Assembly (NCBI RefSeq): GCF_029991245.1
Contig: NZ_JAIVFO010000039.1
Coordinates: 1-32,764, forward strand
Direction of reading: 5' to 3'
Source: Xanthobacter autotrophicus
GTDB taxonomy: Bacteria; Pseudomonadota; Alphaproteobacteria; Rhizobiales; Xanthobacteraceae
DNA: 32,764 nucleotides
In this document: positions 1-28,921 of the stretch, in pieces
Layout: the number at the start of each line of letters is the position of its first letter
Numbering within the stretch: the first letter of the stretch is position 1
Notes under the pieces: model-generated
Told to the model about the DNA's origin: nothing
Seen by the model: the letters and a program-made list of their open reading frames with translations, nothing else
Database searches by the model: none
Position numbers and translations under genes: made by a program

Positions 1-545
1 GCGTAGGGGTGGGCGGCCTTCTCGGGGGAGCCCAGATATTTCTGCCAGCCGTCCGCCCACTTGCAGCCGCACGTGCCGGCCTCGGCCGCGCGCAGCGAGG
101 CGGTGGCGAGGCTCGGATCGAGCATGGGGGAGATGAGGATCTGCCCGGCGAGGGGGGGCGCTTGCTGGTCACGGGCCATCATGGCGAGGCCGGCGGCCAG
201 GTTGCCACCCGATTCCTCCCCGGCCACGTAAAGCGGGGCATTGCGGCCGGCGAACTCGGCCCGGCGGCTGTAGAGGGTGGCCAGCGCGCCGAAGGCGGCG
301 GTCAGGGCGAAGGGGAAGGGATGCGCGCAGGCCAGCGGATAGTCCACCGATACCACCACGGCGCCGGCATCCGCGAGCAGGGCGGCAATATAGGCGCCGC
401 CCTCCAGCGTGCCGCCGGTGAAAGCACCGCCGTGCAGGTGTAAAATAAGCGGAGCCGCGCCCTTGGCGGGACGGGCACCATACAGGCGGGCCGGCATGGG
501 GCCGGCTTCCGTCTGAAGGTGGGTCTCTCGCCAGTCGGGGGCCAT
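1..545 (-). CDS. alpha/beta hydrolase-like protein (HSL/esterase type), 3' end outside window
   Basis: The first 181 codons are visible and the frame stays open to the window edge, so the C-terminus is missing. The ATG at 545 is preceded by a GAGGACGG ribosome-binding stretch. The protein shows the oxyanion-hole motif HGGAF near residue 39 and a sheet/turn pattern typical of the hormone-sensitive-lipase branch of alpha/beta hydrolases. The nucleophile elbow, normally GDSAGGN, reads GEESGGN. The position of the catalytic serine is Glu, with a Ser one residue later. The protein may therefore be a non-classical or inactive member. It is divergent from the LysR gene at 698 and shares a 152-bp promoter region with it, so LysR control is likely. 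The substrate is unknown. Family assignment is fairly sure; enzyme activity is not. Confidence 0.75.
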   Translation of the reverse strand, partial: MAPDWRETHLQTEAGPMPARLYGARPAKGAAPLILHLHGGAFTGGTLEGGAYIAALLADAGAVVVSVDYPLACAHPFPFALTAAFGALATLYSRRAEFAGRNAPLYVAGEESGGNLAAGLAMMARDQQAPPLAGQILISPMLDPSLATASLRAAEAGTCGCKWADGWQKYLGSPEKAAHPY

Positions 546-15512: not shown

Positions 15513-16127
15513 ATGATGTTTGCTGTTCGTAGAAACGTCGCGGCTGCGGCGCTGGCCGCAGGACTGACGCAGATCGCGCCAGGCGCAGCTATCGCGCAGC
15601 CCCGGCCGGCCCCGGCCGAGGTCGAAACGGTGGTCGTCGAGGGCGCCGGCCAGGTCACGGTTCTCACCTATCAGGTGCGGTTCGTCTCCGCCGACCCGGT
15701 GACGCGGCGCGTGGTGCTGGAAGATCCCTCCGGTCGCCGCTGGGCGGTGCTCGCGCCGCCGCTGCTGGGCGACCTCACCTTCTTTCGCAATGGCGAGAAG
15801 CTGATCATCCGCGTGGCGCCCGGCGTGGTCACCGCCCTCGGCAAGGCGCGGCAGGGCAAGCCCGGCGAGGTGATGAAAGAGCTGGTGCTGGACGCAGGCC
15901 TGCCCGGCTGGCCCGAAGGCTTCGGCGTGCGCGAGGTGACGCTCACGGCCATCTTCGTGGATCTGAACAAGGGGGCTGGAACGGTCACCTTCGAAGGGCC
16001 GGATGGTGGCGTGCGCACTGTGCGCGCAGCCAATGACAAGGTGCTTGCCGACCTGCAGCAGGTCCAGCCCGGTGACCTCGCGCAGATCACCTATCTGGAA
16101 GGCCTCGCCATCAACGCCGTCCGCTGA
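15513..16127 (+). CDS. secreted protein of unknown function
   Basis: The 204-residue protein starts at ATG 15513 behind AAGGGGGGC. A Sec signal peptide is evident (MMFAVRRN, then an Ala/Leu-rich core, then a likely cut after GAAIAQ), so it is expected in the periplasm. The mature part looks all-beta (TYQVRFVSADPVTRRVVLEDPSGRRWAVL) and ends PGDLAQITYLEGLAINAVR. The pattern resembles small periplasmic proteins with OB/SH3-like beta folds, but I do not recognise a named family. It is convergent with the 3' part of the broken comM. Confidence 0.7.
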   Translation: MMFAVRRNVAAAALAAGLTQIAPGAAIAQPRPAPAEVETVVVEGAGQVTVLTYQVRFVSADPVTRRVVLEDPSGRRWAVLAPPLLGDLTFFRNGEKLIIRVAPGVVTALGKARQGKPGEVMKELVLDAGLPGWPEGFGVREVTLTAIFVDLNKGAGTVTFEGPDGGVRTVRAANDKVLADLQQVQPGDLAQITYLEGLAINAVR

Positions 16128-16183
16128 CCCGGCACGAGCCCTGAAGCGGCGGCGCAAGACGTCGCCTGGCTTGCGGGTGGGGG

Positions 16184-16894
16184 TCATGCGGCTGCCCGCG
16201 GACGTTCAGCGGCGGCGCGATAGGCGAGCGCCTCCGCGAGGTGTCGGCGGCCGATGCCGTCGGCGCCTTCGAGATCGGCGAGGGTGCGGGCCACTTTCAG
16301 AACCCGGTGATAGCCGCGGGCGCTGAGGCGCATGGCGTCCGCGGCGTCCCGCAGGAGGGCTGCACCGCCCGCGTCCGGCCTCGCCACCTGATCCAGCAGG
16401 GGGCCTGAGGCTTCCGCATTGGTGCGCACGTCCCGCCGCCCGAAGGCGGCGTAACGTTCCATCTGGATGTCCCGCGCCATGGCGACCCGCGCCGCCACTT
16501 CCCGCGAGCCCTCCGCGGGGGCGGGCAGCACGAGGTCCGATGCGGATACTGACGGCACTTCCAGATGAATGTCGATGCGGTCGAGGAAGGGGCCGGACAG
16601 CCGGGCCTGATACTCGTCCGCGCAGCGCGCGCCGCGCTTGCAGGTGAAGCCCGGCTCGCCGGCGCGCCCGCACCGGCACGGATTCATGGCCGCGATCAGC
16701 TGGAAGCGGGAGGGATAGGTGACGCGATGGTTGGCGCGCGCGATCAGCACCTCTCCCGTTTCCAGGGGCTGACGCAGGGAATCGAGGACCTGCGGAGAGA
16801 ATTCCGGCAACTCGTCCAGGAACAGCACGCCATTGTGCGCGAGGGAGACTTCGCCCGGCTTCGCCTTCGCGCCGCCGCCCACCATGGCGGCCAT
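16184..16894 (-). pseudogene. comM: comM/yifB 3' part, split by the integrated element
   Basis: This encodes the C-terminal 236 residues of ComM, a hexameric AAA+ helicase that promotes branch migration during natural transformation. It starts MAAMVGGG and includes Walker B GVLFLDELPEF, the arginine-finger/sensor region and NPCRCG...CKRGARC with zinc-binding-like cysteines. The C-terminal Mg-chelatase subdomain (RVLKVARTLADLEGADGI) is intact to the stop at 16184. The N-terminal Lon-like domain and Walker A lie 11 kb away at 27955-28781. An in-frame TAG eight codons before the first Met closes the reading frame at the element border, and no good ribosome-binding site is seen. The fragment itself shows no decay. 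Confidence 0.9.
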
Positions 16895-16907
16895 GCTGGC
16901 GGAATGG
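16890..16907. repeat. attL: 18-bp direct repeat inside comM
   Basis: GCCATGCTGGCGGAATGG is repeated exactly at 27955-27972. On the comM strand it encodes the conserved H-S-A-S-M-A segment between Walker A and Walker B. The bases on each side differ between the copies, so the crossover core is limited to these 18 bp. Confidence 0.93.
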
Positions 16908-17249
16908 CAGAATGACTAATCTAGTGTTCTTAAAAAGAAATATATTTCAATAACTTATTCCGCATTAATGGCAGCGTCTGTGGCGCCGTACAAGCGCTAT
17001 ACAAGCGCGGGCTGGGCTCGCCAACGGGGCGGCTAGGCGGCGGCTCGTAGGGTCGCCATTCAATCAGTCAAGCACGCAAATAATCTGTTAATTATTGTGC
17101 CGCACCCAGTCTACTTCGACCGAACCCTTTCTGCTCCTACTCGCCTGCATCAACGAAGCTGAGTTCTGTGCCGTGTGCGAAGTGCTGGCAGCGGGGCTCC
17201 CGATGATGGTAGCTCAAGCGATGCCGTTCCGGTCGAACAGGAGGCAACG
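16908..17249. other. element left end, non-coding (342 bp)
   Basis: The stretch just inside attL is AT-rich for about 60 bp, contains the ACAAGC repeats and carries a small inverted repeat AATAAT-CTGTTA-ATTATT around 17085. No gene is supported. It likely serves as the attachment-site arm and as the promoter region for the 17250 gene. Confidence 0.55.
16989..17008. repeat. left-end ACAAGC repeats (candidate integrase arm sites)
   Basis: Two copies of TACAAGCGC occur at 16989-16997 and 17000-17008, 11 bp apart and in the same orientation, about 85 bp inside attL. The same ACAAGC core occurs three times at the right end. The spacing of one helical turn fits tandem binding by the N-terminal arm-binding domain of the integrase. 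Confidence 0.6.
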
Positions 17250-17546
17250 ATGAGACTTCCCTACGGAGCCGTCGCCATTGTGCTGGCAACGATACCTGCG
17301 TTTGCCGCACCGAGCGAGGACAAGGTTTGGCGGTATGGCGCGATGGTGGCCTATGTGCAGCGTTGTACCCCAACAACCGGAGGTATTGATCGGGTCATCG
17401 CGGTGCTCAATCTCGCCCGGCAGGACGGCTTCACGCGGGACGACGAAGGCCCGATCCATGAGAAGGCGAAGGAGATCCGGAATGGCCTCTTGAAGAACGC
17501 CTATCCGGGTTCGGAAGTCTGCAAGGCGTTCGGGACTTACCGCTAG
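17250..17546 (+). CDS. small secreted protein of unknown function
   Basis: The 98-residue product begins MRLPYGAVAIVLATIPAFAAPSED, a clear Sec signal peptide with a likely cut after AFA. The mature part is about 80 residues and helical in pattern (VWRYGAMVAYVQRCTP...IHEKAKEIRNGLLKNAY). It has two cysteines (CTP and EVCKAF) that could form a disulfide. GAGGCAACG gives a good ribosome-binding site before ATG 17250. It is the first cargo gene beside attL, and a strong terminator follows at 17598. Function unknown. Confidence 0.7.
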   Translation: MRLPYGAVAIVLATIPAFAAPSEDKVWRYGAMVAYVQRCTPTTGGIDRVIAVLNLARQDGFTRDDEGPIHEKAKEIRNGLLKNAYPGSEVCKAFGTYR

Positions 17547-17597
17547 CGAGGTCGCCCGGCGTGCATTCGCCCCTGACCACTTCGCCGGGTCCCACTG

Positions 17598-17630
17598 GCC
17601 CCCGTCGCGTCGCTGTGGCGGGGGCTTTTT
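17598..17630 (+). terminator. rho-independent terminator
   Basis: The stem GCCCCCG (17598-17604) / CGGGGGC (17619-17625) with a 14-nt loop is followed directly by TTTTT. It ends transcription of the 17250 gene. Confidence 0.8.
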
Positions 17631-17698
17631 CGTTTGACATCACCCGACTTACAATCACAGGTTGTATTCGCGACGCACGTCAAACGCCGCAGACAGGG

Positions 17699-18190
17699 AT
17701 GATGACCATGACCACGAAGACCGACACTGCCGACCTCAGCTCCAAGGAAAAGGCTCGCGCCAAGGCGAAGGCACCCGCGAAGGCCGGGGTCAAGCCGGCC
17801 GCCAGCGAGACGCCCGCGCAGGCGGCGCCGAAGGCCGCAGCGAAGGCCGTCGCCAAGGGCGCCACGGCCCCCATCGCCAAGCCCAAGGCCGACGCCAGCC
17901 GCGAGGCGCAACTTAAGGCGGCCACCGGCCTCGTCCGCCGGGAACAGAACGGGGTGAAGGAGCCGGCGGCGGGCGGGCTTTGCGCCGCCGCGTGGCAGGC
18001 GTGCGATAAGGCCATGGCCGACCTCGGGCGGACGCCCACCGTCAAGGAGGTGCTGGCAGGCAAGCACATTGCCGGCCTCAACGAGACGAATGTGCGGGTC
18101 GAGTATTACCCGTGGAGGAAATTCCACGGCCATCGGCCGGTTGTCATCGAGGCTGCGGTGGCGCCGAACGAGGCCGCGCCGGAAGCCTGA
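17699..18190 (+). CDS. Ala/Lys-rich basic protein with C-terminal DNA-binding-like domain
   Basis: The protein is about 163 residues from ATG 17699; ATGs at 17702 and 17708 are alternatives. Residues about 15-75 are almost only Ala, Lys and Pro (KARAKAKAPAKAGVKPAA), like bacterial histone-H1-like tails. The C-terminal part, from GLVRREQNGVKEPAAGG to NETNVRVEYYPWRKFHGHRP, has the look of a small HTH-type domain found in phage and plasmid proteins, ending in a WRKFHG motif. It could be a nucleoid-associated or silencing-type protein of the element. It ends 24 bp before a strong terminator. Function is inferred from composition only. Confidence 0.7.
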   Translation: MMTMTTKTDTADLSSKEKARAKAKAPAKAGVKPAASETPAQAAPKAAAKAVAKGATAPIAKPKADASREAQLKAATGLVRREQNGVKEPAAGGLCAAAWQACDKAMADLGRTPTVKEVLAGKHIAGLNETNVRVEYYPWRKFHGHRPVVIEAAVAPNEAAPEA

Positions 18191-18214
18191 CTTTCCATCT
18201 GTGCCAGCGATACC

Positions 18215-18240
18215 AAGGCGCCTCTCGGCGCCTTTTTTTT
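18215..18240 (+). terminator. rho-independent terminator
   Basis: The perfect 8-bp stem AAGGCGCC / GGCGCCTT (18215-18222, 18227-18234) with loop TCTC runs into a T tract ending at 18240. It follows the 17699 gene and lies between it and the convergent lipoprotein gene. Confidence 0.92.
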
Positions 18241-18259
18241 TGTGTTGGAGCCTTAATAT

Positions 18260-18679
18260 TTATGCAGGACTGTCGGGAAGATATATTCCTTCCTTGAAGC
18301 AGTCCTTTCTCACCCAATCAAGACCAATATCAGTGTCATGTATGGCGGACACGATAAATTCGGAAGTTTGATTTCTCATGTGCCCGGTGAATGGTTGCAT
18401 TCCAGTATATCCGCCAAATGAATTCCTGGCATTTACCCATCCGCAAACAACAATTTTTCCGCCCACCTCACCAGCAACAATATTTCCAAATTTAGCGGAG
18501 TCCGGATATTTTAGCACGTTCTTTATGCCGCTGTGTATCGATTTTGATATTTCCGGTGTAAGCGGAACCAGCTTGCCGTTTTTTGGCTCAGAATGCCGGT
18601 AAACGGCGCCCGCATCTGGCGCAACACAACCTGATAGGACAAACGAAAGCAGCAATGAAGCCTGAAATACACGGGCCAC
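18260..18679 (-). CDS. small lipoprotein of unknown function, AT-richer than surroundings
   Basis: The 139-residue frame starts at GTG 18679, with GGAGAGG five bases upstream. An ATG at 18709 is less likely. The lipoprotein signal VARVFQASLLLSFVLSGC ends in lipobox LSGC. The mature part contains VLKYPDSAKFGNIVAGEV and VCGWVNARNSFGGYTGMQPF. Such a YPDSAKF...VCGxVNAxNSFGGYTG pattern recurs, from memory, in small secreted or phage-associated proteins of unknown function. Base composition is visibly lower in GC than every neighbour, which points to recent acquisition. Localisation would be the outer or inner membrane, facing the periplasm. Confidence 0.8.
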   Translation of the reverse strand: MARVFQASLLLSFVLSGCVAPDAGAVYRHSEPKNGKLVPLTPEISKSIHSGIKNVLKYPDSAKFGNIVAGEVGGKIVVCGWVNARNSFGGYTGMQPFTGHMRNQTSEFIVSAIHDTDIGLDWVRKDCFKEGIYLPDSPA

Positions 18680-19219
18680 GCTAACCTCTCCAAGATTGTG
18701 ACAGGCCAATTTGGCGCCGGCTCCTCAAAGCATAAAAACTGGAGATGAGAATTTCCAGCGCGAAGGTGGGGTCAGAAACTCCCGATTAGCGATTAGGGGT
18801 AGGGGGGGGCCGTGGCGGACGACATGGCCCGGCGGGAAGGCCGCAGGGCTCGCCAGCGGCGGCGCCAGACTCGCGCTTGGGTTGTGTCGGCTAGGGTGGT
18901 CGCTGTCCGACCAAAACGGCCGTCCACGGCGCTTATTCCGGCCAGCAGGTAAGCCTAGCTGCCGTAACTGGCACAGGGGAGGGGGAATGGTGGGCGCCGC
19001 AGCGGTGAGCCCGTCCAACCGGGCAGCAAGTCCGAGCCGTCGTGCGGCGCCCATGGGCAGAAGGCTGGCCAAGTGAGGCCGAAATGTGGCTGATTCTGGC
19101 GGCCATGTACGGCGTATGACGGGCGCCACTCGGTAAGTACTTACCGGTAATTGCTGATGCCGCCGCCGGGAAAGTGCATGTAAGCACCATGGCGACGGCG
19201 GCACCAGATGACGGCGGGC
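18680..19219. other. non-coding stretch inside the element (540 bp)
   Basis: No gene is supported on either strand. It lies upstream of the lipoprotein gene and downstream of the unknown operon. A perfect 16-bp palindrome, CGGTAAGTACTTACCG, occurs at 19131-19146. A short tandem CGATTAGCGATTAG lies near 18782, followed by a G-rich run. Confidence 0.45.
19131..19146. promoter_or_regulatory. perfect 16-bp palindrome
   Basis: CGGTAAGTACTTACCG is self-complementary over all 16 bp. It lies about 75 bp beyond the stop of the 19220 gene, so it could be a protein-binding site rather than a promoter operator. No T tract follows. Confidence 0.4.
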
Positions 19220-19705
19220 TCAGGGCTGGCGCCACGCGTTGCGCAAGTCCTCCGCGTACCGCTCGCGGGCCTTCTTCACCTCGGAGGGTTCCCCCTCGCC
19301 GTGCCGGGCGATGGTGGCCCCGGTGTTCACCGACGTGTCCGCAGGCTCGGCGTCGCCGGCCTTCCATGCGTCGGCGAGCTGGGCTTCAGTGGCGATGCGG
19401 AACCCTTCCGCACGGTCCCGCTCCGGGCCGCGCCCCGTAGCGAGCACGCGGCCGTAAGCATCGGTAAAGGTGGTGGGCGCGGTGGCGTCCTGTGTGGCCG
19501 CCGAGCCGCCGCCCGTGGCGCCCGCACCGTCTTGCGGCACACCATCGAAGAACATGAGCACTTCGCCATCACGGGCGGTGCCAGAGAGCGGAACGCGGGA
19601 GCCGTCCGCAAGCCGCTCGTAGCGCCGTCCATCGGGACCGCGAAACACGTGCTTGACGTTCGTGATCTGCATTCCGTTGCGCTTGGCGAAATCGTGGAAG
19701 TCCAT
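19220..19705 (-). CDS. hypothetical protein, last gene of unknown operon
   Basis: The start ATG at 19705 (MDFHDFAKRNGMQITNVKHVF) has a GGAAAGGACA ribosome-binding site; the frame is open further upstream but that part looks non-coding. The product has 161 residues. It has a beta-hairpin-like beginning (VFRGPDGRRYERLADGSRVPL), an Ala/Gly/Thr-rich middle and a charged helical end (EVKKARERYAEDLRNAW). No known family is recognised. It is separated from the upstream coiled-coil gene by 188 bp but lies in the same direction, so it is probably in the same transcript. Confidence 0.6.
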   Translation of the reverse strand: MDFHDFAKRNGMQITNVKHVFRGPDGRRYERLADGSRVPLSGTARDGEVLMFFDGVPQDGAGATGGGSAATQDATAPTTFTDAYGRVLATGRGPERDRAEGFRIATEAQLADAWKAGDAEPADTSVNTGATIARHGEGEPSEVKKARERYAEDLRNAWRQP

Positions 19706-19893
19706 CGGTTGTCCTTTCCGTTGCTGCACTATCAGCGGGGGTGCTGGTGGGGACGGTTCCGGCATTGGCATTGCTGCCACGGTCCATGAGGGCCGGCGAC
19801 TCGCCGTCTGCCTTTCGTGCGTCGTCGTCCGCACGCCCACCAGCACCATGCTCAACCTCGGCGACAGGGGCACCGGGGGAGCAATTTGAATCA

Positions 19894-20772
19894 TCACGCG
19901 GCCCGGCGCTTGGCGCCGGCCTCGACCCTGAGGCCGAGGACAGCGAGCGAGTCCGCGTCGGCACGACGAGTGCCACCGTCACGCTGGATCAGGGCTTCTT
20001 CCAGCACCTCGGCCTCGAACAGGTTGGCGTGGAGGGTTTCCAGCGCCGCTGTCTTCTCGGCCGCCGGGACGGCGCCGGCCTCGTGCAGGAGGCCGTCCTC
20101 AACCAGCCGCTTGAGCACGCCCTCCGCGTCGTACCAGCACAGCACCGAAAGCGCGGCCGTGCCGGAGTTCGTGAAGGCTGAAACCTTCAACCCGCCACTC
20201 CGATCCATGCGCGGCCGTCCGGCCTTCGCCTTCTCGGCAATGGCGCCTCGCAGCGCGTCCATCTGCTCTTGGACGGTCGGCGCGCTATGCTCCAGCTTGG
20301 CGATGTCACGCTTCAGGCCAGCAACGGTCTCGCGGACGGTGACGAGCGTGGCGCCCTTCTTCGGCTCCCGGGCCTCAACGGCGACGAGCACGGTTCCGGC
20401 CGGAAGGGTATCGAGGGCCTGCCGGATGCGAGCCAGCGGGCCGCCGGCTTCCCGCTGCGCCGACTGAAAGCGCCGCAGCGTTTCCTCGCGGTGCTCAAGC
20501 TCCTGTTCGAGCCGGGCGAGTTCCGACACGTTGACGGGATGGGGCGATGCGCTGTCCCGGCTCCCTTCTGCCACCGCCCGGCGCAGTTCGATGACGGGGC
20601 GCAGCACCTCGTCGCGCCGCTTCCGCGCCGCCCGCGCCGCTGCCTCGGAAGCAAAGCTCTCGTCCTCGAACGCGCGCAGCTTCGCCGCAGCGGCGGGCGG
20701 CAGGGCGATGGTGGACTTCTCGCGGGTGTAGCTGGGCCACGCCACGGTTTCGTGATGTTCAAAGCTGGGCAT
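19894..20772 (-). CDS. hypothetical coiled-coil protein
   Basis: The 292-residue product begins MPSFEHHETVAWPSYTREKS. A long helical, charged region from about residue 30 to 110 is coiled-coil-like (FASEAAARAARKRRDEVLRPVIELRRAV; VSELARLEQELEHREETLRRFQ). A second helical segment is around residue 150-185. The C-terminal half contains a compact part (SAFTNSGTAALSVLCWYDAEGVLKRLVEDGLL). Such architecture could be a scaffold, a phage-interfering factor or a DNA-associated protein; nothing specific can be said. The start is 2 bp after the stop of the upstream gene, so translation is coupled. Confidence 0.7.
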   Translation of the reverse strand: MPSFEHHETVAWPSYTREKSTIALPPAAAAKLRAFEDESFASEAAARAARKRRDEVLRPVIELRRAVAEGSRDSASPHPVNVSELARLEQELEHREETLRRFQSAQREAGGPLARIRQALDTLPAGTVLVAVEAREPKKGATLVTVRETVAGLKRDIAKLEHSAPTVQEQMDALRGAIAEKAKAGRPRMDRSGGLKVSAFTNSGTAALSVLCWYDAEGVLKRLVEDGLLHEAGAVPAAEKTAALETLHANLFEAEVLEEALIQRDGGTRRADADSLAVLGLRVEAGAKRRAA

Positions 20773-20774
20773 GG

Positions 20775-21152
20775 TCAGTCCTCGCCGGTTTCGCCGTCTT
20801 CAACGGGATTGGGGTGCGTGTGCGCCTCGTGCATGGTGCCGTAGAGGCGGCCGAACACACGGGAGCGTTCCCGCGTAATGGGGTGGCGGGGGCCGCAAAT
20901 CGCCTCGGCCACTTCCGCCTCGATCTGCGCGGCAGCGGTGCGCTCGGCCAGTTCCATGACGATGGGGCTATGCCGGCCGGGCAGTTCCTCCAGGTATGCG
21001 GCGCGGAGCATCGAGAGGCGGCGCTCGGTGTCATTCGACGGCTGGCGGCTCTCAAGGAACAAGTTGCCGAGCCGGCCGCGCTTCAGCCTGAGAAAACGCG
21101 TGTAGTCCGGCGGCCTCACCTCGGGCACATCGGCCGAATTGCTCGTGTACAT
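20775..21152 (-). CDS. hypothetical protein of the unknown operon
   Basis: The start ATG 21152 (MYTSNSADVPEVRPPDYTRF) has AAGAAGGGA upstream; the frame upstream overlaps the neighbouring gene and is not used. The 125-residue protein is basic at the N-terminus (FLRLKRGRLGNLFLESR). A helical, acidic middle (VMELAERTAAAQIEAEVAEAI) and the motif RSRVFGRLYGTMHEAH follow. No family is recognised. It sits 20 bp after the 21173 gene and 2 bp before the coiled-coil gene. Confidence 0.7.
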   Translation of the reverse strand: MYTSNSADVPEVRPPDYTRFLRLKRGRLGNLFLESRQPSNDTERRLSMLRAAYLEELPGRHSPIVMELAERTAAAQIEAEVAEAICGPRHPITRERSRVFGRLYGTMHEAHTHPNPVEDGETGED

Positions 21153-21172
21153 ATGAGTTCCCTTCTTCGTCG

Positions 21173-21529
21173 TCAGGCAGGGGAGAAGGTGGGCGCCGGC
21201 CAGCCGGTCAGTGTCGGGGGCGGACCAAATTGCGGCAGAGGCGGGGGTGGCGGCTCCACTCCCAACCCATAGACCCGGCGAGATCCGCCGACCGCGTAGA
21301 ATGCCTTGAGCGCCAGCGCGTGAACCTCGCTCCACAAGTCCAGAGCACGGTTGCCTTCGTCCATGCTGGCGAAGTCGATTTCACGCTGGTGGAGCGCCAT
21401 GACCTCTTGCTCGAAGGCGTTCAAGGCGCCATGGAGGCGGAAGTCCCCGCTACGCTCGGAGGCGTATAGGAACTTTCCGCGAAGCATCACAAGTCGTTTG
21501 ATAAGGTTTTGTCCACTGATCGTTTTCAT
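21173..21529 (-). CDS. hypothetical protein, first gene of unknown operon
   Basis: The 118-residue product starts MKTISGQNLIKRLVMLRGKF. It is helical and charged to about residue 85 (LNAFEQEVMALHQREIDFASM; ALDLWSEVHALALKAFYAVGG) and then has a Pro-rich tail (EPPPPPLPQFGPPP). The operon promoter should lie in the 21530-21723 gap, which carries three inverted repeats. Function unknown. Confidence 0.65.
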   Translation of the reverse strand: MKTISGQNLIKRLVMLRGKFLYASERSGDFRLHGALNAFEQEVMALHQREIDFASMDEGNRALDLWSEVHALALKAFYAVGGSRRVYGLGVEPPPPPLPQFGPPPTLTGWPAPTFSPA

Positions 21530-21606
21530 AACGGCACCACACAGAAAGTAGAATGCTCTATCTGAATCCCCTGTATTCGCTTCGCCCGGCGTCTATGTGC
21601 TAGGCT

Positions 21607-21681
21607 TACGGTTGACCGTACGTTATTGACTGCAATTTTTCAAGTTAAATTGCAGACATCAACTTTACGTCATGAAAGTTG
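21607..21681. promoter_or_regulatory. three evenly spaced inverted repeats between divergent genes
   Basis: Three perfect inverted repeats are present. TACGGT-TG-ACCGTA is at 21607-21620. CTGCAATTT / AAATTGCAG with an 8-nt spacer is at 21630-21655. CAACTTT / AAAGTTG with an 8-nt spacer is at 21660-21681. Their centres are about 29 and 28 bp apart. The AT-rich gap separates the unknown minus-strand operon from the GcrA-like gene, so this looks like a shared operator or promoter region. Which protein binds is unknown. Confidence 0.6.
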
Positions 21682-21723
21682 TGTCGGTCAATACATGGCA
21701 GGGGTCAAAGCTGAGGCGAGCGC

Positions 21724-21993
21724 ATGACCATTTCACTTTTCGATGCAGAGCGGTTTCATTGCCGCTGGCCGATTGAATGCACTGGCACAGTGGGGGACGG
21801 TGGCTCAGCCGCTAGTGAGGGCGCCCTGCTCGTTTGCGGTGAGGAGGTGCGCCCCGGCTCTAGCTATTGCCCGCACCACCACGGCATCGCCTATATCTCG
21901 GTGGAGCAGGACCGGCGGAATAGGACGATGACAACTGCTGCCGTGGATGCTCGGCGGAGCAAAGGCATGTCGTGGGCTTGGAAGGCTGCATAG
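21724..21993 (+). CDS. stand-alone GcrA C-terminal (sigma-interacting) domain-like protein
   Basis: The 89-residue protein has C13-RWPI, C38-G, Y48-C49 and H51/H53 followed by GIAY. This matches the CRWPIG...FCG...YC..H..xAY pattern at the C-terminus of GcrA, the part that binds sigma-70 domain 2 in Caulobacter. The N-terminal DNA-binding half of GcrA is absent. A protein like this could bind host sigma factor or RNA polymerase without sequence specificity, or carry its own different DNA contact. The Cys/His pattern could also hold zinc. GAGGCGAGCGC serves as ribosome-binding site. It diverges from the unknown operon across the triple inverted repeats. Assignment rests on motif recognition only. 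Confidence 0.65.
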   Translation: MTISLFDAERFHCRWPIECTGTVGDGGSAASEGALLVCGEEVRPGSSYCPHHHGIAYISVEQDRRNRTMTTAAVDARRSKGMSWAWKAA

Positions 21994-22529
21994 CGCGGCC
22001 GCCAGCGGCCACGGCCCGCGAGCGGCGCCCATGCCCGCCGGCCGGGCGGTCCCGCGCGGCACACACGCGGGCGACGCGGCCCGCGACGGGAAGCGAGACG
22101 ACTGCTGATCGACCGGCTGGGCTTGCACCCGGCTTGAACACCCCACCTGTGCCAGAATCATCCCCAAGCCTTTCAATGTGATGCCGAGGCCATGCGATCA
22201 TTGGGGCGCAATGGCCGCCGAGGGATCGCGGCTGGTGGATGCCGCGTCGTCTGGCGTCGTGAGACAGCGCGGGCATATGGGTGCGCGTGAAGGAGAGACG
22301 ACGCGCCGCCGGCCCCGTCCCCCGCGTGCGTGCGCGGGCGCTCGACCAAAACTCGTAGAACAGCCGCATCATATTCGATCCCCCATCGTCTGGCGGCTGC
22401 GGCGGTGCTCGCCCTTGGGTGCGCGCCCGCGTGAAAGAGAGTGGTCGGCGCGCCGCGCGCGAATAAGGAGAGTCGGCAACGCGCGCGCATGAAACGGCGA
22501 GTGGTCGCGGCGGGCGGCCCATGCCCGGT
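21994..22529. other. non-coding GC-rich stretch with degenerate repeats
   Basis: No gene is supported. From about 22270 to 22515 a loose motif recurs, GCGTGAA-(A/G)-GAGAG...GTCG...GCGCGC, in three or four degenerate copies. Open frames crossing it have no protein-like composition. With the repeat block to its right it may belong to a replication or regulatory region. Confidence 0.35.
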
Positions 22530-22679
22530 GGGTGGGTTGCGTCGGTTGGCTGCGTGCGTCAGTTTCCCCCCATACCCCCCGGCGCAACTGACGCGCCCGA
22601 ATGGGCGCTGTTGCGCGTCACTTGCGTGGGTTGGCGTCGGTTTAACTTACGCACAACTCACGCAACTCACGCAGGGGAT
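22530..22679. repeat. dense direct and inverted repeats beside repA-like gene (candidate origin)
   Basis: GTGGGTTGCGTCGGTT (22532-22547) recurs as GTGGGTTGGCGTCGGTT (22626-22642). GCGTCAGTT (22556-22564) pairs with AACTGACGC (22586-22594) around a C-rich run. GCGCCC-GAAT-GGGCGC forms a hairpin at 22593-22608. AACTTACGC, AACTCACGC and AACTCACGC occur at 22644, 22655 and 22664. The block lies just after the stop of the RepA-like gene. Iteron and ssi-like hairpin arrangements of this kind occur at origins of RSF1010-type replicons; origin function is inferred. Confidence 0.45.
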
Positions 22680-23963
22680 CTATTCTTCTTCGCTCTCGTC
22701 TGTCATTCCCGGCATGGGCGGTGTGTCGCTCGGCCGGCCGAACGGCGCGCCCCACATGCGGATCACCTTCCATCGAGATTTTTTGTTGCGGTTCTTTGTC
22801 GAGTAGACCTCCTCCTCGACGTAGCCGGTGCGAAGAAGTTCGCGCATAAGAGCGGTGCTCTGCTTGCGCTCTATGCCATAGGGCCAGTTCGGCAGGTCGC
22901 GGAAGCTCTCGTACACGCCATCCGGCGTATTGGTGGAGAAAGACGAGCTGACGTAGAACTCCTTTGCGTAGTGCTCTGCAATCAGCTCCAGAACAACTTG
23001 CTCAGGGGCGGGCGGCACGGCGGTGCCATCGGGCATTTGGGGAGCCTGCTGCCTCACCGGGAACAGAACGCCGCCCTCGCCGCGCTGTAGTTCCAGAGGG
23101 GCGCTCATGGGGCCGTCCTGAAACTTGCCACCCTTCAGGAACAGGCGCTCCGCGGCGCCCTTCTTATCCACCTCGAAATAGAGGCGGCTGCGGACGCCGT
23201 TGTGCCATTGAGCGCTTCCCACGTAGCCGTCATCGCCGGTCCGGTTGCCGCGCGAGTGGCTGCGATCCGTGTGCGTCGTCAGCACCGTGGCGACGCGCCG
23301 ATTCTTGTTCACCCGGAGGAGCAGGCGGATGAAGGCTTTCACCTGTTGCCGGACGAGGTCGTTTCCCTCGTATGTGTCGCCGGTGCCGTCTACGATGCAG
23401 AGCAGCGGGTCAATCTGCTTCACCAACTTGCGGTACGCCCCATACCCCGGCATCTCCCCGAGCGCCCGGTATGAAGAGCCCTCGCTGCCCCCTCGCTGCA
23501 TCTCACCATAAAATCCATCGAACTCCGTGGCGTCGAAGATGTGGAGATTCTGGTGGACCTCGTCGAGGTCGTAACCATGCAGCCGGCAAATGTCCTGGAG
23601 GCGCCATGTCACCCGGTCCTCGGGGTCCTCGGCGGACCAATAAAGCACCGGCCCCTTGAGCGTCTGGCACCCCATGAAGGGGACGCCGAGTGAGACGGCG
23701 CACGACGCCTGCAAGGTGAAGAAGCCTTTGCCGGCGCCGCCGTGCCCGCCGAGCAGGGTCACATCGGCATCCGGTATGAGGCCCTTCACAATGTCCGTCC
23801 GGCGCTGCGGCGTCTTCCTGAAATCGATGCGCGGGGGCAACGCGACCGGTGGCGACGCATTGCCCGGCATGGGCACCCACGGCGGCACGAAGCTCGCCGT
23901 GGGGGCGTCCTGTGGGGCGGAATAGACGAGCTGCGGGCCGCCCTTCTTCGCTTCCTCGGTCAT
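22680..23963 (-). CDS. RepA-like hexameric ATPase/helicase (AAA_25 type)
   Basis: The 427-residue protein has Walker [10 protein letters not shown] at residues 72-80, followed by [18 protein letters not shown]. Walker B LLCIVDG is near 187-193, and a sensor-like segment [12 protein letters not shown] follows. These are typical of the RecA-fold RepA helicases of IncQ plasmids and phage-encoded AAA_25 proteins. The C-terminal part (from about residue 320) looks like a winged-helix domain ([34 protein letters not shown]). Its ATG overlaps the primase stop by 4 bp, so the two are made together and presumably unwind and prime the element. A regulatory ATPase role is less likely. Confidence 0.85.
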
Positions 23964-25045
23964 GCTTCACCGTCCCGACGAGCGGCGAGGGCGTCGCGCT
24001 CGTGTTGTTTGGAGAACCACCGCGCGACATCTGCGGCGATGGCGTAATGATCCCGGTAGTGCCGCAGCACCCCGTCAGGCGGCGCATGGACCTGCCACGC
24101 AAAGGCGACGACGTTCAGCACCCGCTGATCGGGGAGTCCGTAATCCAGGGCCAGAATGCGGATCAGGCGGAAGCATTCGGCGCTCTTGTTTTCGTGACGC
24201 CCCCCGAGGACGAGGTGCGGCGAGGCCAGTCGCCCGCGCACATGCTCGGGGAGCAAATTCCAGAAGAGTTCCCCATCATCAAGGGAAGGCTGGTCCAAGG
24301 CGGCCCCACCGCCCACGATGACCCTCGCCTGTGCCAGTGCCGCCTCGTCTGGCGGCGGTAGGTCCGGCACCCATAGGGCGCCCGTGAAGGGGCGAGCGAT
24401 TGTCGCTGGCACAGGCGAGGGGCTGCGGCCGCGCGCGAGCTTCGCCCGGTTCGGCCAATTCAGGGTTCCGGGGAGGCGGAGCACCCCGTTGATGTTTTTT
24501 CCGATGTCGTCGTGAGCGCCGAGCCGGGCATCCAGCCCAAGGGCGAGCAGGTGGGCCTTGACCGGGTGCAGGGGCCATTGGAGCAGATAGACCGGCTGGA
24601 AGTTGCCGGGCGAGGTCTCCACCGCGTAAGGGGCATCGTCAGGAATGCCGCCGCTGCGCTTCTCGCCATCGTTGTCGAGGTCGTGCCCGCTGGCCAGCAC
24701 CGCCACAATGTCGGACGTGACGCGCCGTCCGCCGCGCCTGTAGACGTTCCACGTTGCGTAGATATTTCGATGAGGGAAGCGCGCCGGGTTCGACAGGTTC
24801 ATGGCCGCTGCGACCATGCCGTCAACGTCGCCGATGTCGAACCATGCCGAGTTCGATGCCACCGGCTTTCCGGTGGTCGGGTCTTCCCCGTAGCTGACGA
24901 GGTCGAGCACGCCGTCGCGGACCTCGCCCTCGCGAGCCATGTCCCGCCACCGCTGGGCGAGCCAATGCCGCAGGCCAATATGGTAGCGAATGGCCTCTGG
25001 ATCGACTAGGCGGCTGTAATCTGAAAATGAAAAATCCGTGTCCAC
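23960..25045 (-). CDS. primase/primase-polymerase-like replication protein (AEP style)
   Basis: The 361-residue protein shows a motif series of archaeo-eukaryotic primase-like replication proteins. These are HDLDND at 121-126 (metal-binding DxD position), [13 protein letters not shown] at 145-157, the acidic GAHDD at 177-181 and [10 protein letters not shown] at 190-199, a hallmark of these proteins. The C-terminal 120 residues are helical ([28 protein letters not shown]), like a PriCT-type extension. It is the first gene of a two-gene operon with the RepA-like ATPase. Together they suggest the element replicates after excision, as P4-like satellites do. Catalytic activity is inferred from motifs. 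Confidence 0.75.
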
Positions 25046-25204
25046 GGTTTATCTCCGAGTGTAGAAGACACCCGGCTAATACACGCGAAGGCTTGCAGGC
25101 GCCCCTAATGGGCTGTATGGTGCCGTTGTCCACTGACAGCACCCCTGTAAGTCTTTGGCTGTGCTCCAGCCGAGCGAAGGCCCGCCCACCACGGCGGGCC
25201 TTTT
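25046..25204 (+). ncRNA. candidate small RNA ending at a strong terminator, opposite the primase leader
   Basis: A plus-strand terminator at 25177-25204 lies in a gap whose only flanking genes are on the minus strand, so it must end some plus-strand transcript. The 130 bp before it contain short inverted repeats (GGTGC...GCACC; ACAG...CTGT) but no open frame with a ribosome-binding site. The RNA would be antisense to the untranslated leader of the primase-rep operon. P4-type satellites control replication genes with a short RNA, so this is a plausible copy-control or immunity RNA. The 5' end is unknown; the start given is arbitrary. Confidence 0.35.
25177..25204 (+). terminator. rho-independent terminator, plus strand
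   Basis: The perfect 10-bp stem AAGGCCCGCC / GGCGGGCCTT (25177-25186, 25193-25202) with loop CACCAC continues into TTTT. On the minus strand there is no T tract after the stem. Confidence 0.8.
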
Positions 25205-25398
25205 GCATTCGTGGTATGCCCTAAGCCTTCTCACGCGCGCCAACAAGATTTTGGCGGTTTGCGCGTGGGGATTCGATGTATTGGTTTGGCGCCCTTCGCC
25301 TTGTGGCTCCACTTATACTGCGCTTGCGCAGGGTTTAAGGCGTGCGAGCATCAGGTATTGCTTCAAGGTGATGGGCGCTGCTGTCCACCATTGACGGT
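25205..25398. promoter_or_regulatory. promoter/operator region of the primase-rep operon
   Basis: No gene is supported here. On the minus strand TATAAG (25312-25317) is a good -10 candidate. The palindrome CTGCGC-TT-GCGCAG at 25318-25331 lies just upstream of it, where a repressor would block RNA polymerase. The half site TACTGCGC (25316-25323) also occurs in the palindrome before the alpA-like gene. The -35 match is poor. Confidence 0.45.
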
Positions 25399-25680
25399 CT
25401 ATGCCGTGGCGGCGCGGGGCTGCTCGCTGGTGCTGTTGCGGGCGCCCTCATAGAGCCACGCCAGCACGTCCTTCTCCGCGTACCAAACACGCCGAGTGCC
25501 GCGCGGGCGGAAGTAGCGCGGGCCGCCGCCCCGGAGGCGGTATTGCTCGATGGTGTTGAAGTGGACGCCCACCACCTCGGCCACTTCAGGAGTGGAGAGC
25601 GGCCGTCGCTTCGGCAGATAGCCGAACAGGTCGCAAAGCTGGTCGAACGAGGGTTCCCCCTGCATTGCAGGACACTCCAT
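25399..25680 (-). CDS. AlpA/excisionase-like helix-turn-helix regulator
   Basis: The 93-residue protein has a MerR-like HTH of the excisionase/AlpA group: RRPLSTPEVAEVVGVHFNTIEQYRLRGGGPRYFRPRGTRRVWYAEKDVLAWL (in two halves, residues 25-49 and 50-76). The wing and the final DVLAWL are typical. ATG 25680 is used here; an internal ATG (MQGEPSF) five codons on has the better-placed GGAGTG and may be the true start. In P4 and PICIs an AlpA-type protein activates integrase or excision genes. It lies upstream of the primase-rep operon and downstream of a perfect palindrome. Confidence 0.8.
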   Translation of the reverse strand: MECPAMQGEPSFDQLCDLFGYLPKRRPLSTPEVAEVVGVHFNTIEQYRLRGGGPRYFRPRGTRRVWYAEKDVLAWLYEGARNSTSEQPRAATA

Positions 25681-26081
25681 GGGAGCCTGCCACGCGGGAT
25701 AGCGAGCAGGCGTTGGCCTGCCGCATGACCCAGCGGTTTAGGGGTGAACGCTCCGACAAGTGCCGAAGCCGATAGCGAAATAGTACTGCGCAGTACTTCA
25801 AAGCGGTGCGCCGAACTGGAAAACAACGGTACTACGGTCAAGGAACCGCAAGCAAGCGCTAAATGCACTCGGATAAAGTGTTTTAATTCAGTAACTTAGC
25901 TCGCCGCCCTTCGCGAATCCTGATGAGCTTTGGCGAGGTTCCCGATATTGAGAACGGCGGCGGGGCGAGTCAAGCCCGTTGCCGGTACGTGGTGTCTCAG
26001 TTTGAACTCCGGCACCCGTTGGCCACCGCCATCGTGCGCCGAATCCTGTGCTACGCTAACAAAGCAAGCAAGGAGGTGTGC
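25681..26081. other. gap between divergent alpA-like gene and small plus-strand gene (401 bp)
   Basis: Contains the 16-bp palindrome and an AT-richer segment around 25855-25900. A plus-strand frame is open from 25923 into the next gene, but its ribosome-binding site and composition favour the later GTG start. No other gene is supported. Confidence 0.45.
25782..25797. promoter_or_regulatory. perfect 16-bp palindrome before the alpA-like gene
   Basis: AGTACTGCGCAGTACT is self-complementary. On the minus strand it overlaps TACTAT, a good -10 candidate for the alpA-like gene about 100 bp downstream. It shares TACTGCGC with the palindrome at 25318-25331, suggesting one regulator for both promoters. 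Confidence 0.5.
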
Positions 26082-26321
26082 GTGGGCCGTTTTGAGTTGA
26101 TTTTTGATGGCGACGATATCGCCAGTTCTAGGGGGTCCGCGTGGATCGGCGTGCGCGCCCAAACCCACGCTGGCCGCCTCGTCATCACACACGATTGCGG
26201 GAGCCCGGCAGAGCTTGAGAGCGCTGTGCGGGACTTGAAAGCCGAATTGGACAATCTCGTAGAGAGGTCGCGAGCGAAGTTTGAACGCAACCTGCGTGAA
26301 AAAATTAGCAAGGATGGGTGA
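26082..26321 (+). CDS. small hypothetical protein of the element
   Basis: GTG 26082 follows a perfect AAGGAGG with a 5-base spacing, so the product has 79 residues. It begins with a beta-type stretch (GRFELIFDGDDIASSRGSAWIGVRAQ, split by a turn) and ends in a charged helix (ESAVRDLKAELDNLVERSRAKFERNLREKI). No family is recognised. It diverges from the alpA-like gene, a place where satellites and prophages often keep a small regulator, but there is no HTH. It is convergent with the integrase gene. Confidence 0.65.
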   Translation: MGRFELIFDGDDIASSRGSAWIGVRAQTHAGRLVITHDCGSPAELESAVRDLKAELDNLVERSRAKFERNLREKISKDG

Positions 26322-26389
26322 CGGTGCCAAACGGCCCAATCATTCTTGCGGGCTAGCCGCGTCGCTCGCGTGGGGCGGGCCGTGGTGGA

Positions 26390-26439
26390 CGGCAGGCGCG
26401 AGACCGGGGGCAACCCCGGCTGCACCGGAAGGCCTGCCG
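26390..26439. other. two-tier hairpin between convergent small gene and integrase
   Basis: Outer arms CGGCAGGC (26390-26397) and GCCTGCCG (26432-26439) enclose an inner hairpin CCGGGG-GCAA-CCCCGG (26404-26419). It lies between the stop codons of the 26082 gene and the integrase, without T tracts. It may help end transcription in both directions. Confidence 0.4.
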
Positions 26440-26449
26440 CCGGGCCGCG

Positions 26450-27787
26450 CTACGCACGCAGGGCGACCACGTTCTCGCCGGCCGCCTGCGCCGCCGCCAC
26501 CTTCCCCTGTGCCTCAATGAAGTCGCCAATGCGCTGCACCTCCGCCAGGAGGTATTGCAAGTGTTGCGTCTCGAGATAATGCCGCGCGGTGACGCCTTTC
26601 GGAACATGATTCGTCAGCAACTCGACCTTGTAGAAATCGAGCTTGAGCTCGGCTACGCCGATCGTCACGAAGGTGCGCCGCAAGTCATGCGCTATGGGGC
26701 GATAGCCTGCCGCTTCCTCGATGCGCTGAAGCGCGGCGCGCGGGTCATGAATGTGCCCGGCCTTGCTCTTGGTCGGGAACACGAAGGCGCTCGATCCTCG
26801 CACCCCTACGCCATCGCCGCGCCGTTCCTTCCGGGCCTTCAGGAGAGCGATGGCCTGCGTGCTGAGTGGTAGCCAGACAGGGTTATGGTTCTTCGGATTC
26901 GGGATGTGCCACCATGCCTCGTCGAGGTTCACGTTCTCCCAGCGCAGCGCGGCGGCTTCCATGAGCCGGGCGCCCGTCAACAGTAGGAACTTCACCAGTT
27001 CCATGCTCGTCAGGTTCTCGATGTCGTGCGGATCGAAGCGGCCGTCACCCCGCGCCACGTTGGATTCCAGTTCCGCACCCCGCGCCGAAAGGACGTGCCA
27101 GACGGCGCCGATCTTCGCGGCTGGGATGTAGCCGGTGCGTGGCTTGATGGGCATCCAATCGTCGTTCAGGGCATCGACCGGGTTATTGGTGATGATGGCG
27201 GTGCCGTCCGCGCGCTTGTATTGCCTCCCCGCGTAATTGACGAGCGCTCGCAGGGTGCCAAAGGCGATGCTCGCTTGGCCCGGCGAGCCGCCCTTGCGGT
27301 CCCCATGCAGCCCTGTGGTGGCGTAAAGGCGATATTGCTTCCGCACCATTTCCTCGGTGATGTCGGCGACGGGCTTGTCCGCCCATGACGCCAGCGCGAC
27401 CGTGATATGGCGCCGGATCTCAACCTTCGTGCTCTCGGTCAGCTTACCCGGCCGGTCAAGGTAGGACTGCATCACCTGCCGCAGCGTGACCTTTTCGGCC
27501 TCCTCGGTCCGGCGCATATCGCGCGGGTCCACGCCCTCCCGCATTTGCTGAAGGAGGCTCTGCGCCCGCTTCCGTGCTTGGTCCTCGGTGTACGTCCCGT
27601 ATTTGCCGATGGTCACGACCACCGTGCGGCCTCGGACGCGGCCCTGAGCGACGAACGCCTTTGCGCCGGCCGCCGTCACCCGCAGCCCATAGCCCGGCAC
27701 CCTCTTATCCCAGAGGATGACGTAGCCAGACGCGGGCGGTTGTACCCCGTCGATGAACGTCTTTGTGAGTGAGACTGTGGTTCCCAT
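26450..27787 (-). CDS. int: tyrosine integrase (DUF4102/P4-like)
   Basis: The 445-residue protein starts at ATG 27787 (MGTTVSLTKTFIDGV). The frame is open to 27862 but that part lacks similarity. The N-terminal arm-binding DUF4102-type domain spans about residues 5-95 (ILWDKRVPGYGLRVTAAGAKAF). A SAM-like core-binding domain covers about 100-200. The catalytic domain shows Arg274 (TGARLMEAA), a likely Lys299, His367 and Arg370 (HDLRR), His394 (TNH) and the nucleophile Tyr404 (ARHYLE). All catalytic residues are present, so it should be active. It sits next to attR, pointing away from it into the element. It most likely recombines the 18-bp comM core. Confidence 0.95.
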   Translation of the reverse strand: MGTTVSLTKTFIDGVQPPASGYVILWDKRVPGYGLRVTAAGAKAFVAQGRVRGRTVVVTIGKYGTYTEDQARKRAQSLLQQMREGVDPRDMRRTEEAEKVTLRQVMQSYLDRPGKLTESTKVEIRRHITVALASWADKPVADITEEMVRKQYRLYATTGLHGDRKGGSPGQASIAFGTLRALVNYAGRQYKRADGTAIITNNPVDALNDDWMPIKPRTGYIPAAKIGAVWHVLSARGAELESNVARGDGRFDPHDIENLTSMELVKFLLLTGARLMEAAALRWENVNLDEAWWHIPNPKNHNPVWLPLSTQAIALLKARKERRGDGVGVRGSSAFVFPTKSKAGHIHDPRAALQRIEEAAGYRPIAHDLRRTFVTIGVAELKLDFYKVELLTNHVPKGVTARHYLETQHLQYLLAEVQRIGDFIEAQGKVAAAQAAGENVVALRA

Positions 27788-27832
27788 AGCCGCCCGGTTG
27801 ACGCCCACTCCGCCGGCCCCATGCCAGCGCCA

Positions 27833-27938
27833 TACAAGCAGGCTAGGACAAGCTAGCACCACGCCACACCATTTGTCACATACACTAAGTGACTATCAAT
27901 AAAAGCTTATTGTTGCTTGCACAAAGATGGACAAGCTA
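27833..27938. repeat. right-end ACAAGC repeats (candidate integrase arm sites)
   Basis: ACAAGC occurs at 27834-27839, 27848-27853 and 27931-27936, the last two within GACAAGCTA. All are in the same orientation as the left-end copies. They lie between the integrase start and attR. Five copies in two short end regions are far more than chance. Confidence 0.55.
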
Positions 27939-28781
27939 CCCCATGCGCCGCGCCGCCATGCTGGCGGAATGGTGGGGTGCGCGGAACGGGCGGCGGTCCA
28001 TCAGCGCGCCGTCCTCGATGGAGCCGGCCACCGACGCGATCATGGAGACATCGAGCATCTCGGCGGGCGACAGCGACGGCAGGATGGAGGGAAGTCTCTG
28101 GGCCAGCATGGACTTTCCCGCGCCCGGCGGCCCGATGAACAGAAGATTGTGCCCACCAGCCGCGGCGACCTCGAGGGCGCGCTTGGCCGTCTCCTGCCCT
28201 TTCACGTCCTTCAGGTCGAGCATGGCTTCCCCCGGCGCCTTCATCTTAGGTTCGGGCCGGCCCATCACCTGTCGGCCGGTCATGTGGTTGGCGAGTTGGA
28301 TGAGGGATTGCGGCGCCAGGATCTCCATGTCGGGGCTGGCCCAGGCGGCTTCCGCGCCGCACGCCGCAGGGCAGATGAGCCCATGGCCGCGCGCGTTGGC
28401 GCCGATGGCCGCCGGCAGCACGCCGGCCACCGCGGCGATGGCCCCGTCGAGCGCGAGTTCGCCCACCACGGTGAAGCCGCCAAGGGCATCGGAGGGAATC
28501 GCGCCGATCGCCGCCATGAGCCCGAGCGCGATGGGCAGGTCGTAGTGGGAGCCTTCTTTCGGCAGGTCCGCCGGCGCGAGATTGACGGTGATGCGCCGCG
28601 CCGGCAGCGCAAGGCCCGAGGCGATGAGCGCCGCACGCACGCGCTCGCGCGCCTCCGACACCGCCTTGTCCGGCAGGCCGACGATGGTGAAGGCCGGCAG
28701 GCCCGCCGCGACGTGCACCTGGACGTCCACGGGGCGCGCGTCCACCCCCTCGAATGCGACTGTCGCAACCCGCTGGATCAC
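27936..28781 (-). pseudogene. comM: comM/yifB 5' part, split by the integrated element
   Basis: This holds the first 275 native residues of ComM. It has the Lon-like ChlI domain (VATVAFEGVDARPVDVQVHV; LPDKAVSEARERVRAAL) and Walker A GPPGAGKS. It ends at the attR core (RPFRAPHHSASMA), after which RRMG and a stop are read from the element. I place the start at GTG 28781, where similarity to ComM (VQRVATVAFEG) begins; the frame is open to an ATG at 28871 that would add an unlikely extension. Walker B and the rest are at 16184-16894. A truncated protein with Walker A but no Walker B should not work as an ATPase. Confidence 0.9.
27955..27972. repeat. attR: 18-bp direct repeat inside comM
   Basis: The exact second copy of GCCATGCTGGCGGAATGG (first at 16890-16907). 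The 5' part of comM runs through it and then meets a stop six codons into the element at 27936. Confidence 0.93.
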
Positions 28782-28921
28782 CGCCCCCACCCCGCTCGAC
28801 TGCCTGCACCTCACGCTAGCGGAGGATCGCCGCACCGACAAGAACGAAAGCGGAACAATTTTACTTGCCACGGTCGAGGCCGGCGCTATCCTGGCGTGGC
28901 TTCGACGAATGGGGGCGGGGG

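Follow-up and report, generated by a model that had tools for sequence, protein, structure and literature searches.

The window analysed here, a stretch of 32,764 nucleotides from Xanthobacter autotrophicus (assembly GCF_029991245.1, contig NZ_JAIVFO010000039.1), contains a comM/yifB gene that is split by an inserted element carrying a tyrosine integrase. The element is flanked by an 18-bp exact direct repeat, GCCATGCTGGCGGAATGG, found at 16890-16907 and 27955-27972, and each half of the gene includes one copy of it. Integration itself is strongly supported by this anatomy. The parts of the locus on which the argument depends are the following (att, attachment site):

27955..28781, minus strand: 5' half of comM/yifB, codons 1-275 and part of 276, with a GTG start at 28781, ending in the att core
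27955..27972, no strand: att core, integrase-proximal copy, 18 bp, 167 bp from the integrase ATG
26450..27787, minus strand: tyrosine integrase, 445 aa, ATG at 27787, with arm-type DNA-binding and catalytic domains
16908..27954, no strand: body of the mobile element, 11,047 bp, between the core copies
16890..16907, no strand: att core, integrase-distal copy, 18 bp, exact repeat
16184..16907, minus strand: 3' half of comM/yifB, beginning with the second core copy (tblastn, residues 271-510)

The 18-bp repeat is the longest exact direct repeat within 16000-28900, the runner-up being 14 bp long, and its length was reached in none of 100 first-order Markov shuffles, whose longest repeats were of 12-17 bp. 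In the draft genome of 4.96 Mb the core has no third occurrence, even when up to two mismatches are allowed. When one core copy is kept, 28781-27973 and 16889-16184 join into a single open frame on the minus strand. A first, sequence-only reading of this DNA had described a perfect 18-bp repeat encoding HSASMA at these positions, as the repeat search confirmed, and a lossless join giving a protein of 511 residues. The rejoined gene has 1533 nt including the stop and thus encodes 510 residues. The core spans comM codons 271-275 and adjoining bases, that is, HSASM(A) (codons 271-276), between Walker A and Walker B of the AAA+ domain and about 21 codons upstream of the latter (codons 297-302). 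The HSASM residues are invariant across nine aligned ComM proteins. Both halves are recognizable by their Pfam domains: ChlI (PF13541, 9e-41) and Mg_chelatase (PF01078, 9.6e-37) in the 5' half, Mg_chelatase (6.4e-53) and Mg_chelatase_C (2.1e-29) in the 3' half. The open reading frame (ORF) of the 5' half continues into the element as far as 27936, adding a few foreign residues.

The empty site is present in relatives. The search for comM breaks among them, made with codons 1-277, matched the N-terminal half in 59 of 61 genomes, the window's own included. In all 13 other genomes of the genus comM runs uninterrupted across the site, the element is absent and the residues PHHSASMAAM are unchanged; the 18-bp core is exact in four of them, has one mismatch in five and two mismatches in four. 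G002 is the genome nearest to each of the two halves, with 94.2% identity for the N-terminal half and 91.5% for the C-terminal half. Differences from it amount to 43 synonymous-codon and four non-synonymous-codon changes in the former, and 50 and ten, respectively, in the latter. Neither half of comM is decayed, and the difference counts cannot date the insertion. An origin of the two halves from different comM alleles was rejected, as both have the same closest genome. The comparison with element-free relatives that had been proposed as a check thus agrees with the earlier proposal of two undecayed halves of one allele, given their common nearest genome and the mostly synonymous differences.

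Since the draft genome consists of 495 contigs, it could be argued that unrelated contigs were wrongly joined at the 18-bp repeat during assembly. We consider such an artefact extremely improbable: one and the same contig contains both junctions, no further copy of the core exists in the assembly, the two halves form one frame with one nearest relative, and the distance between core and integrase matches that of related elements.

The integrase and its relatives in tRNA genes

Integrase searches were carried out with residues 4-445 (26450-27778), a query of 442 aa, and start codons were compared. The protein matches PF00589 (3.4e-12) and PF13356 (1.1e-11), and its best PHROG is phrog_1, integrase (1.4e-40). 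The catalytic R, HxxR, H and Y are present in the motifs TGAR, HDLRR, NH and RHY, which begin at positions 268, 364, 390 and 399 of the query. With PF00589 and these residues, a core at both ends and a copy or near copy of that core in the empty site, the insertion fits a tyrosine-integrase integrative element (a genomic island, or similar to an integrative mobilizable element) in its enzyme and att sites.

In the matches listed for the 61 near relatives, every other integrase stayed at or below 42% identity over any matched stretch, and none went beyond an E-value of 1e-31. In 397 genomes of the order there were three matches at E <= 1e-45 (the window, G109 and G131, the latter at 31%), and in 385 genomes of the class two at E <= 1e-50 (the window and G443); both searches scored at most four first-look candidates per genome, so some relatives may have been missed. 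A collection of named genomes added three more (L020, L021 and L022). The integrase has 27 records in phages and 59 in plasmids, all below 60% identity (21-34% for the best 20 of each), and none of its homologues was confirmed in IMG/VR.

The five closest relatives are L020, L021, L022, L070 (genome G109) and L073 (genome G443), with 45-51% identity. Three of them have att sites in tRNA genes: tRNA-Ser(TGA) in L020, from the betaproteobacterium UBA2592 (18-bp repeat), and in L021, from Brachymonas (33-bp repeat), and tRNA-Lys(CTT) in L073, from an alphaproteobacterium (51-bp repeat). In these three loci the core lies 157-188 bp upstream of the integrase start, compared with 167 bp in the window. 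No comM pieces were present in the stretches fetched for the five loci. One further gene is common to the window and to a tRNA-borne element:

25399..25680, minus strand: AlpA-like helix-turn-helix protein, candidate excisionase/regulator (phrog_66, excisionase and transcriptional regulator, 1.2e-7)

This ORF and one in the tRNA-Lys element of G443 share 71% identity over 82 aa. The window's ORF matches HTH_17 below the Pfam cut-off (2.7e-5) and gives a weak mad1 match in PADLOC (0.0088); the AlpA-like match alone makes it a candidate recombination directionality factor. The elements in tRNA-Ser(TGA) and tRNA-Lys(CTT) thus resemble that of the window in their integrase, core spacing and, for L073, the AlpA-like protein, but they occupy tRNA genes, flanked by repeats of 18, 33 and 51 bp, whereas the window's element sits in internal codons of a protein gene and carries no visible tRNA fragment. 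As the closest relatives with a resolved site occupy tRNA genes, the integrase lineage probably changed its target from tRNA genes to comM.

We consider it highly probable that tyrosine-integrase recombination between attP and the 18-bp core at codons 271-276 brought an integrative element of some 11 kb into comM. This reading is based on a repeat unmatched in shuffles, the empty site in relatives, the one nearest relative of both halves, the integrase motifs and a core spacing like that of related elements. It also draws on the tRNA att sites of three of the five closest integrase relatives, on the AlpA-like protein common to the tRNA-Lys element and on the presence of ComEC and DprA homologues, described below. 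The element's own integrase would have recombined attP with the core, and as long as the element stays inserted, the split comM should not yield a functional protein. Exact excision, helped by the AlpA-like protein, would restore the gene. Loss of ComM would lower the integration of divergent incoming DNA and so protect the element from replacement.

Several observations weigh against this reading or parts of it. The empty site is known from related species; within the species itself, neither an excised nor an empty form was observed. The tRNA-integrase family rests on three of the five relatives, because L070 and L022 give no att site: L070 shows neither a repeat nor a tRNA in the stretch searched, and L022 ends early, with a tRNA-like sequence upstream read by eye only. 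Mimicry of a tRNA at the window's core is unconvincing. In an ungapped comparison with 51 ARAGORN calls (43 distinct sequences) from the window's genome, the best match was 14/18, to the 5' end of tRNA-Leu(CAG), and was equalled by 57 of 1918 windows taken from the flank-joined comM region; by eye, the flanks of the core contain no tRNA piece. Finally, ComM may be of minor importance should the organism lack natural transformation. A separate 8-bp likeness between the core and the 3' end of tRNA-Ser was dropped, since by eye it has the opposite direction relative to the integrase.

Other genes of the element

The remainder of the element, in which GC falls below that of the flanks over parts of its length, contains these ORFs:

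23960..25045, minus strand: 361-aa ORF, primase-like by eye only (phrog_3123, unknown function, 0.0017; no Pfam match)
22680..23963, minus strand: RepA/helicase-like ATPase (PF13481 AAA_25, 1.1e-22; phrog_906, DNA polymerase/primase, 1.1e-14)
19220..21529, minus strand: four ORFs without known function, adjacent or overlapping, of 225, 292, 186 and 118 aa (no Pfam match at the curated cut-off)
17561..18190, plus strand: accessory ORF of unknown function (phrog_11298, unknown function, 2.2e-15)

Scans of the element covered 13 ORFs with Pfam and ten each with PHROGs, PADLOC and NCBIfam. The four adjoining ORFs had no match in PHROGs or PADLOC, and the 292-aa one gave a sub-threshold match to DUF2249 (0.009). 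The ORF at 17561..18190 shares 48% over 65 aa with the L021 locus. A small ORF on the plus strand (21724-21993) matches the GcrA cell-cycle regulator just below the Pfam cut-off (26.1 versus 26.9 bits). Relaxase and mating-pair families had no match among the 13 ORFs scanned with Pfam, so the element does not qualify as an integrative conjugative element; transposase families likewise had none in that set. None of the four scans, NCBIfam included, gave a match to a relaxase, mating, transposase, terminase or capsid family.

The matches to phrog_906 and phrog_11298 could also suggest a prophage remnant or a helper-dependent phage satellite using the comM site as its attB, and the order of integrase, AlpA-like protein and replication-type ATPase presumably resembles that of Gram-negative phage satellites (similar to phage-inducible chromosomal islands). 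A true prophage does occupy comM elsewhere: in L077 (787-11729) the gene is broken at codon ~336 by a prophage with terminase (PF20441, PF03354) and capsid (PF05065) matches. However, virion, terminase, capsid and packaging families were absent from the ten ORFs scanned with PHROGs and the 13 scanned with Pfam, so that the element does not classify as a prophage, and megablast found nothing matching its DNA in the collections of phages and plasmids. A phage or satellite origin is therefore a doubtful explanation.

comM as a target of recombinases

The comM gene is already known as a target of Tn6022/AbaR islands, Tsy elements and large serine recombinases (PMC10293859, PMC10083194, PMC4774983, PMC11472951). 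The Tn7-like Tn6022/AbaR islands also insert into the AAA+ part of comM and split the gene, but they are characterized by TnsABC/TniQ/TnsF, a target-site duplication and a Walker B target, none of which was found in the window's element (PMC10293859). Tsy elements are tyrosine recombinase elements in comM as well, but they require a second recombinase-like protein, TnsF, and, like Tn6022, aim at the Walker B region (PMC10293859). In the search for a second recombinase of this type, made without a TnsF query, the contig gave a single integrase match and the 13 ORFs no zinc-finger match. The view of the sequence-only reading that a tyrosine integrase here uses a comM site unlike that of AbaR is thus upheld, with codons 271-276 against a Walker B target (PMC10293859). 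CF65_00446-like integrase elements, reported in comM of several genera, have the integrase as their shared feature (PMC4774983). In the literature searched, we found no published report of a tyrosine integrase of the arm type that enters comM at HSASMA.

Large-serine-recombinase elements in Mg chelatase/comM genes (PMC10083194) share the target gene with the window's element but use a serine recombinase (PF00239 and PF07508), for which the 13 element ORFs gave no Pfam match. In three genomes of our survey (G019, G032 and G041) such elements break comM at codon ~214, beside Walker A. The G019 insert (L055, 1179-7853; 6.8 kb) encodes, besides a large serine recombinase (PF00239 and PF07508), two proteins that are possibly defence cargo, one with a TIR domain and one with a beta-propeller. 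In G032 and G041 the comM halves are on separate contigs, and the recombinases at the break are 40% and 34% identical, respectively, to that of G019.

A third position is codon ~74. In G045, comM is split at the LPKEGS codons, with its halves on separate contigs (L066, about 509-557; L097, 1635-3101). An arm-type tyrosine integrase (PF13356, PF00589), which shares 25% identity with that of the window, begins 157 bp beyond the core. On the other contig, the 32 nt abutting the core agree at 29 positions with tRNA-Arg(CCG) from the window's genome, compared with at most 22 in 307 control windows. A chromosomal source of this tRNA-Arg piece was not found in G045 at up to three mismatches, in an assembly that is 84% complete. 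Mimicry of a tRNA by the 17-bp core itself was rejected: its best score was 11/17, while 236 of 422 17-mers of its own comM score at least 12. Two viral contigs (L081 and L093) likewise have PF13356 and PF00589 integrases beside a comM broken at codon ~74. These integrases resemble the window's in domains and setting, but they are 23-25% identical to it and act about 200 codons away. Arm-type tyrosine integrases in comM, at HSASMA in the window and at codon ~74 in three other loci, are new relative to the literature searched.

The comM gene is also incomplete or broken in G014, G024, G027, G028, G040 and G044, as is a second copy in G059. Among 115 genomes of the class, 95 match the N-terminal half and a few are partial, for instance G434, G445 and G484 near codon 220. 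In G509:C108, G468:C2 and G482:C2, an intact comM has short additional stretches nearby that repeat the first 37-48 residues of ComM; these are perhaps remnants of insertions that rebuilt the 5' end of the gene. IMG/VR contains 20 ComM-encoding loci, of which three are nearly full length and 17 partial, some cut merely by the contig end. A search of these breaks for recombinases, limited to two queries, found a serine-recombinase ORF in eight of the 17 partial loci (L081, L082, L084, L086, L087, L090, L094 and L096) and a tyrosine integrase, its domains confirmed, in two (L081 and L093), each showing one junction only. A tyrosine integrase at the window's codon was not found among the 20 loci. 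In L081 (8661-12113), the comM fragment is bounded on the left by the tyrosine integrase (codon ~74) and on the right by a serine recombinase (codon ~214), an arrangement that looks like the entry of two elements into one gene. In L087 (1-1330), a serine recombinase adjoins the right break (codon ~382), and the left break, near the codons used in the window (271-280), adjoins a Mu-type transposase ORF (PF09039, 2.3e-8).

This diversity of unrelated recombinases (arm-type tyrosine, large serine, Mu-type or TnsF-guided transposition) at separate conserved codons would suit a broader proposal, namely that comM is a target with many doors into which tRNA-type integrases slip, being retained because ComM breakage protects them. 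The slip itself would be indicated by the window's lineage, found otherwise in tRNA genes, and by the tRNA-Arg(CCG) piece at the G045 element end. No tRNA likeness emerges from the scores of the comM cores themselves, and this wider proposal appears unlikely.

ComM acts after DNA uptake, during recombination (PMC11472951). The wording of the sequence-only reading, that the element could switch off uptake, is thus better replaced by a reduced integration of divergent incoming DNA. Loss of comM lowers transformation about 100-fold for non-homologous inserts in Acinetobacter, where the gene is often interrupted by mobile elements, and absence of ComM has little effect in V. cholerae with identical DNA (PMC11472951). 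That elements gain from broken competence genes, comM included, has already been published (PMC4774983, PMC11472951), and comM insertions have been argued to protect the elements (PMC4774983). The window's genome encodes a DprA homologue and a ComEC homologue, the latter in two pieces at the ends of contigs C33 and C494; the break is read as an assembly gap because both contig ends are coding. These homologues are no proof of competence, since the same families were also matched in control genomes such as E. coli. The element might plausibly act as a reversible competence switch.

It is also conceivable that comM is a neutral landing site, where the integrase uses a conserved DNA string in a dispensable gene and the element gains nothing from ComM loss. 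The invariance of HSASM in the nine aligned proteins would provide a broad-range anchor, the genus may not be competent, none of the ten element ORFs scanned with PADLOC belongs to an accepted defence family, and recombinase targets are not enriched near anti-phage defence genes (PMC10083194). However, unrelated recombinases enter comM at several codons (in counts made for comM alone), and competence genes are reported to be enriched among large-serine-recombinase targets (PMC10083194). A neutral site is a real possibility, although we lean away from it and prefer integrase-driven entry into comM, in which loss of ComM would protect the element.

The window's element adds an independently evolved enzyme and another codon to the elements that break comM, which fits the view that selection, and not chance, makes this gene a target. 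Its relatives in tRNA genes, together with the tRNA-Arg piece of G045, suggest a path by which tRNA integrases may reach a competence gene.
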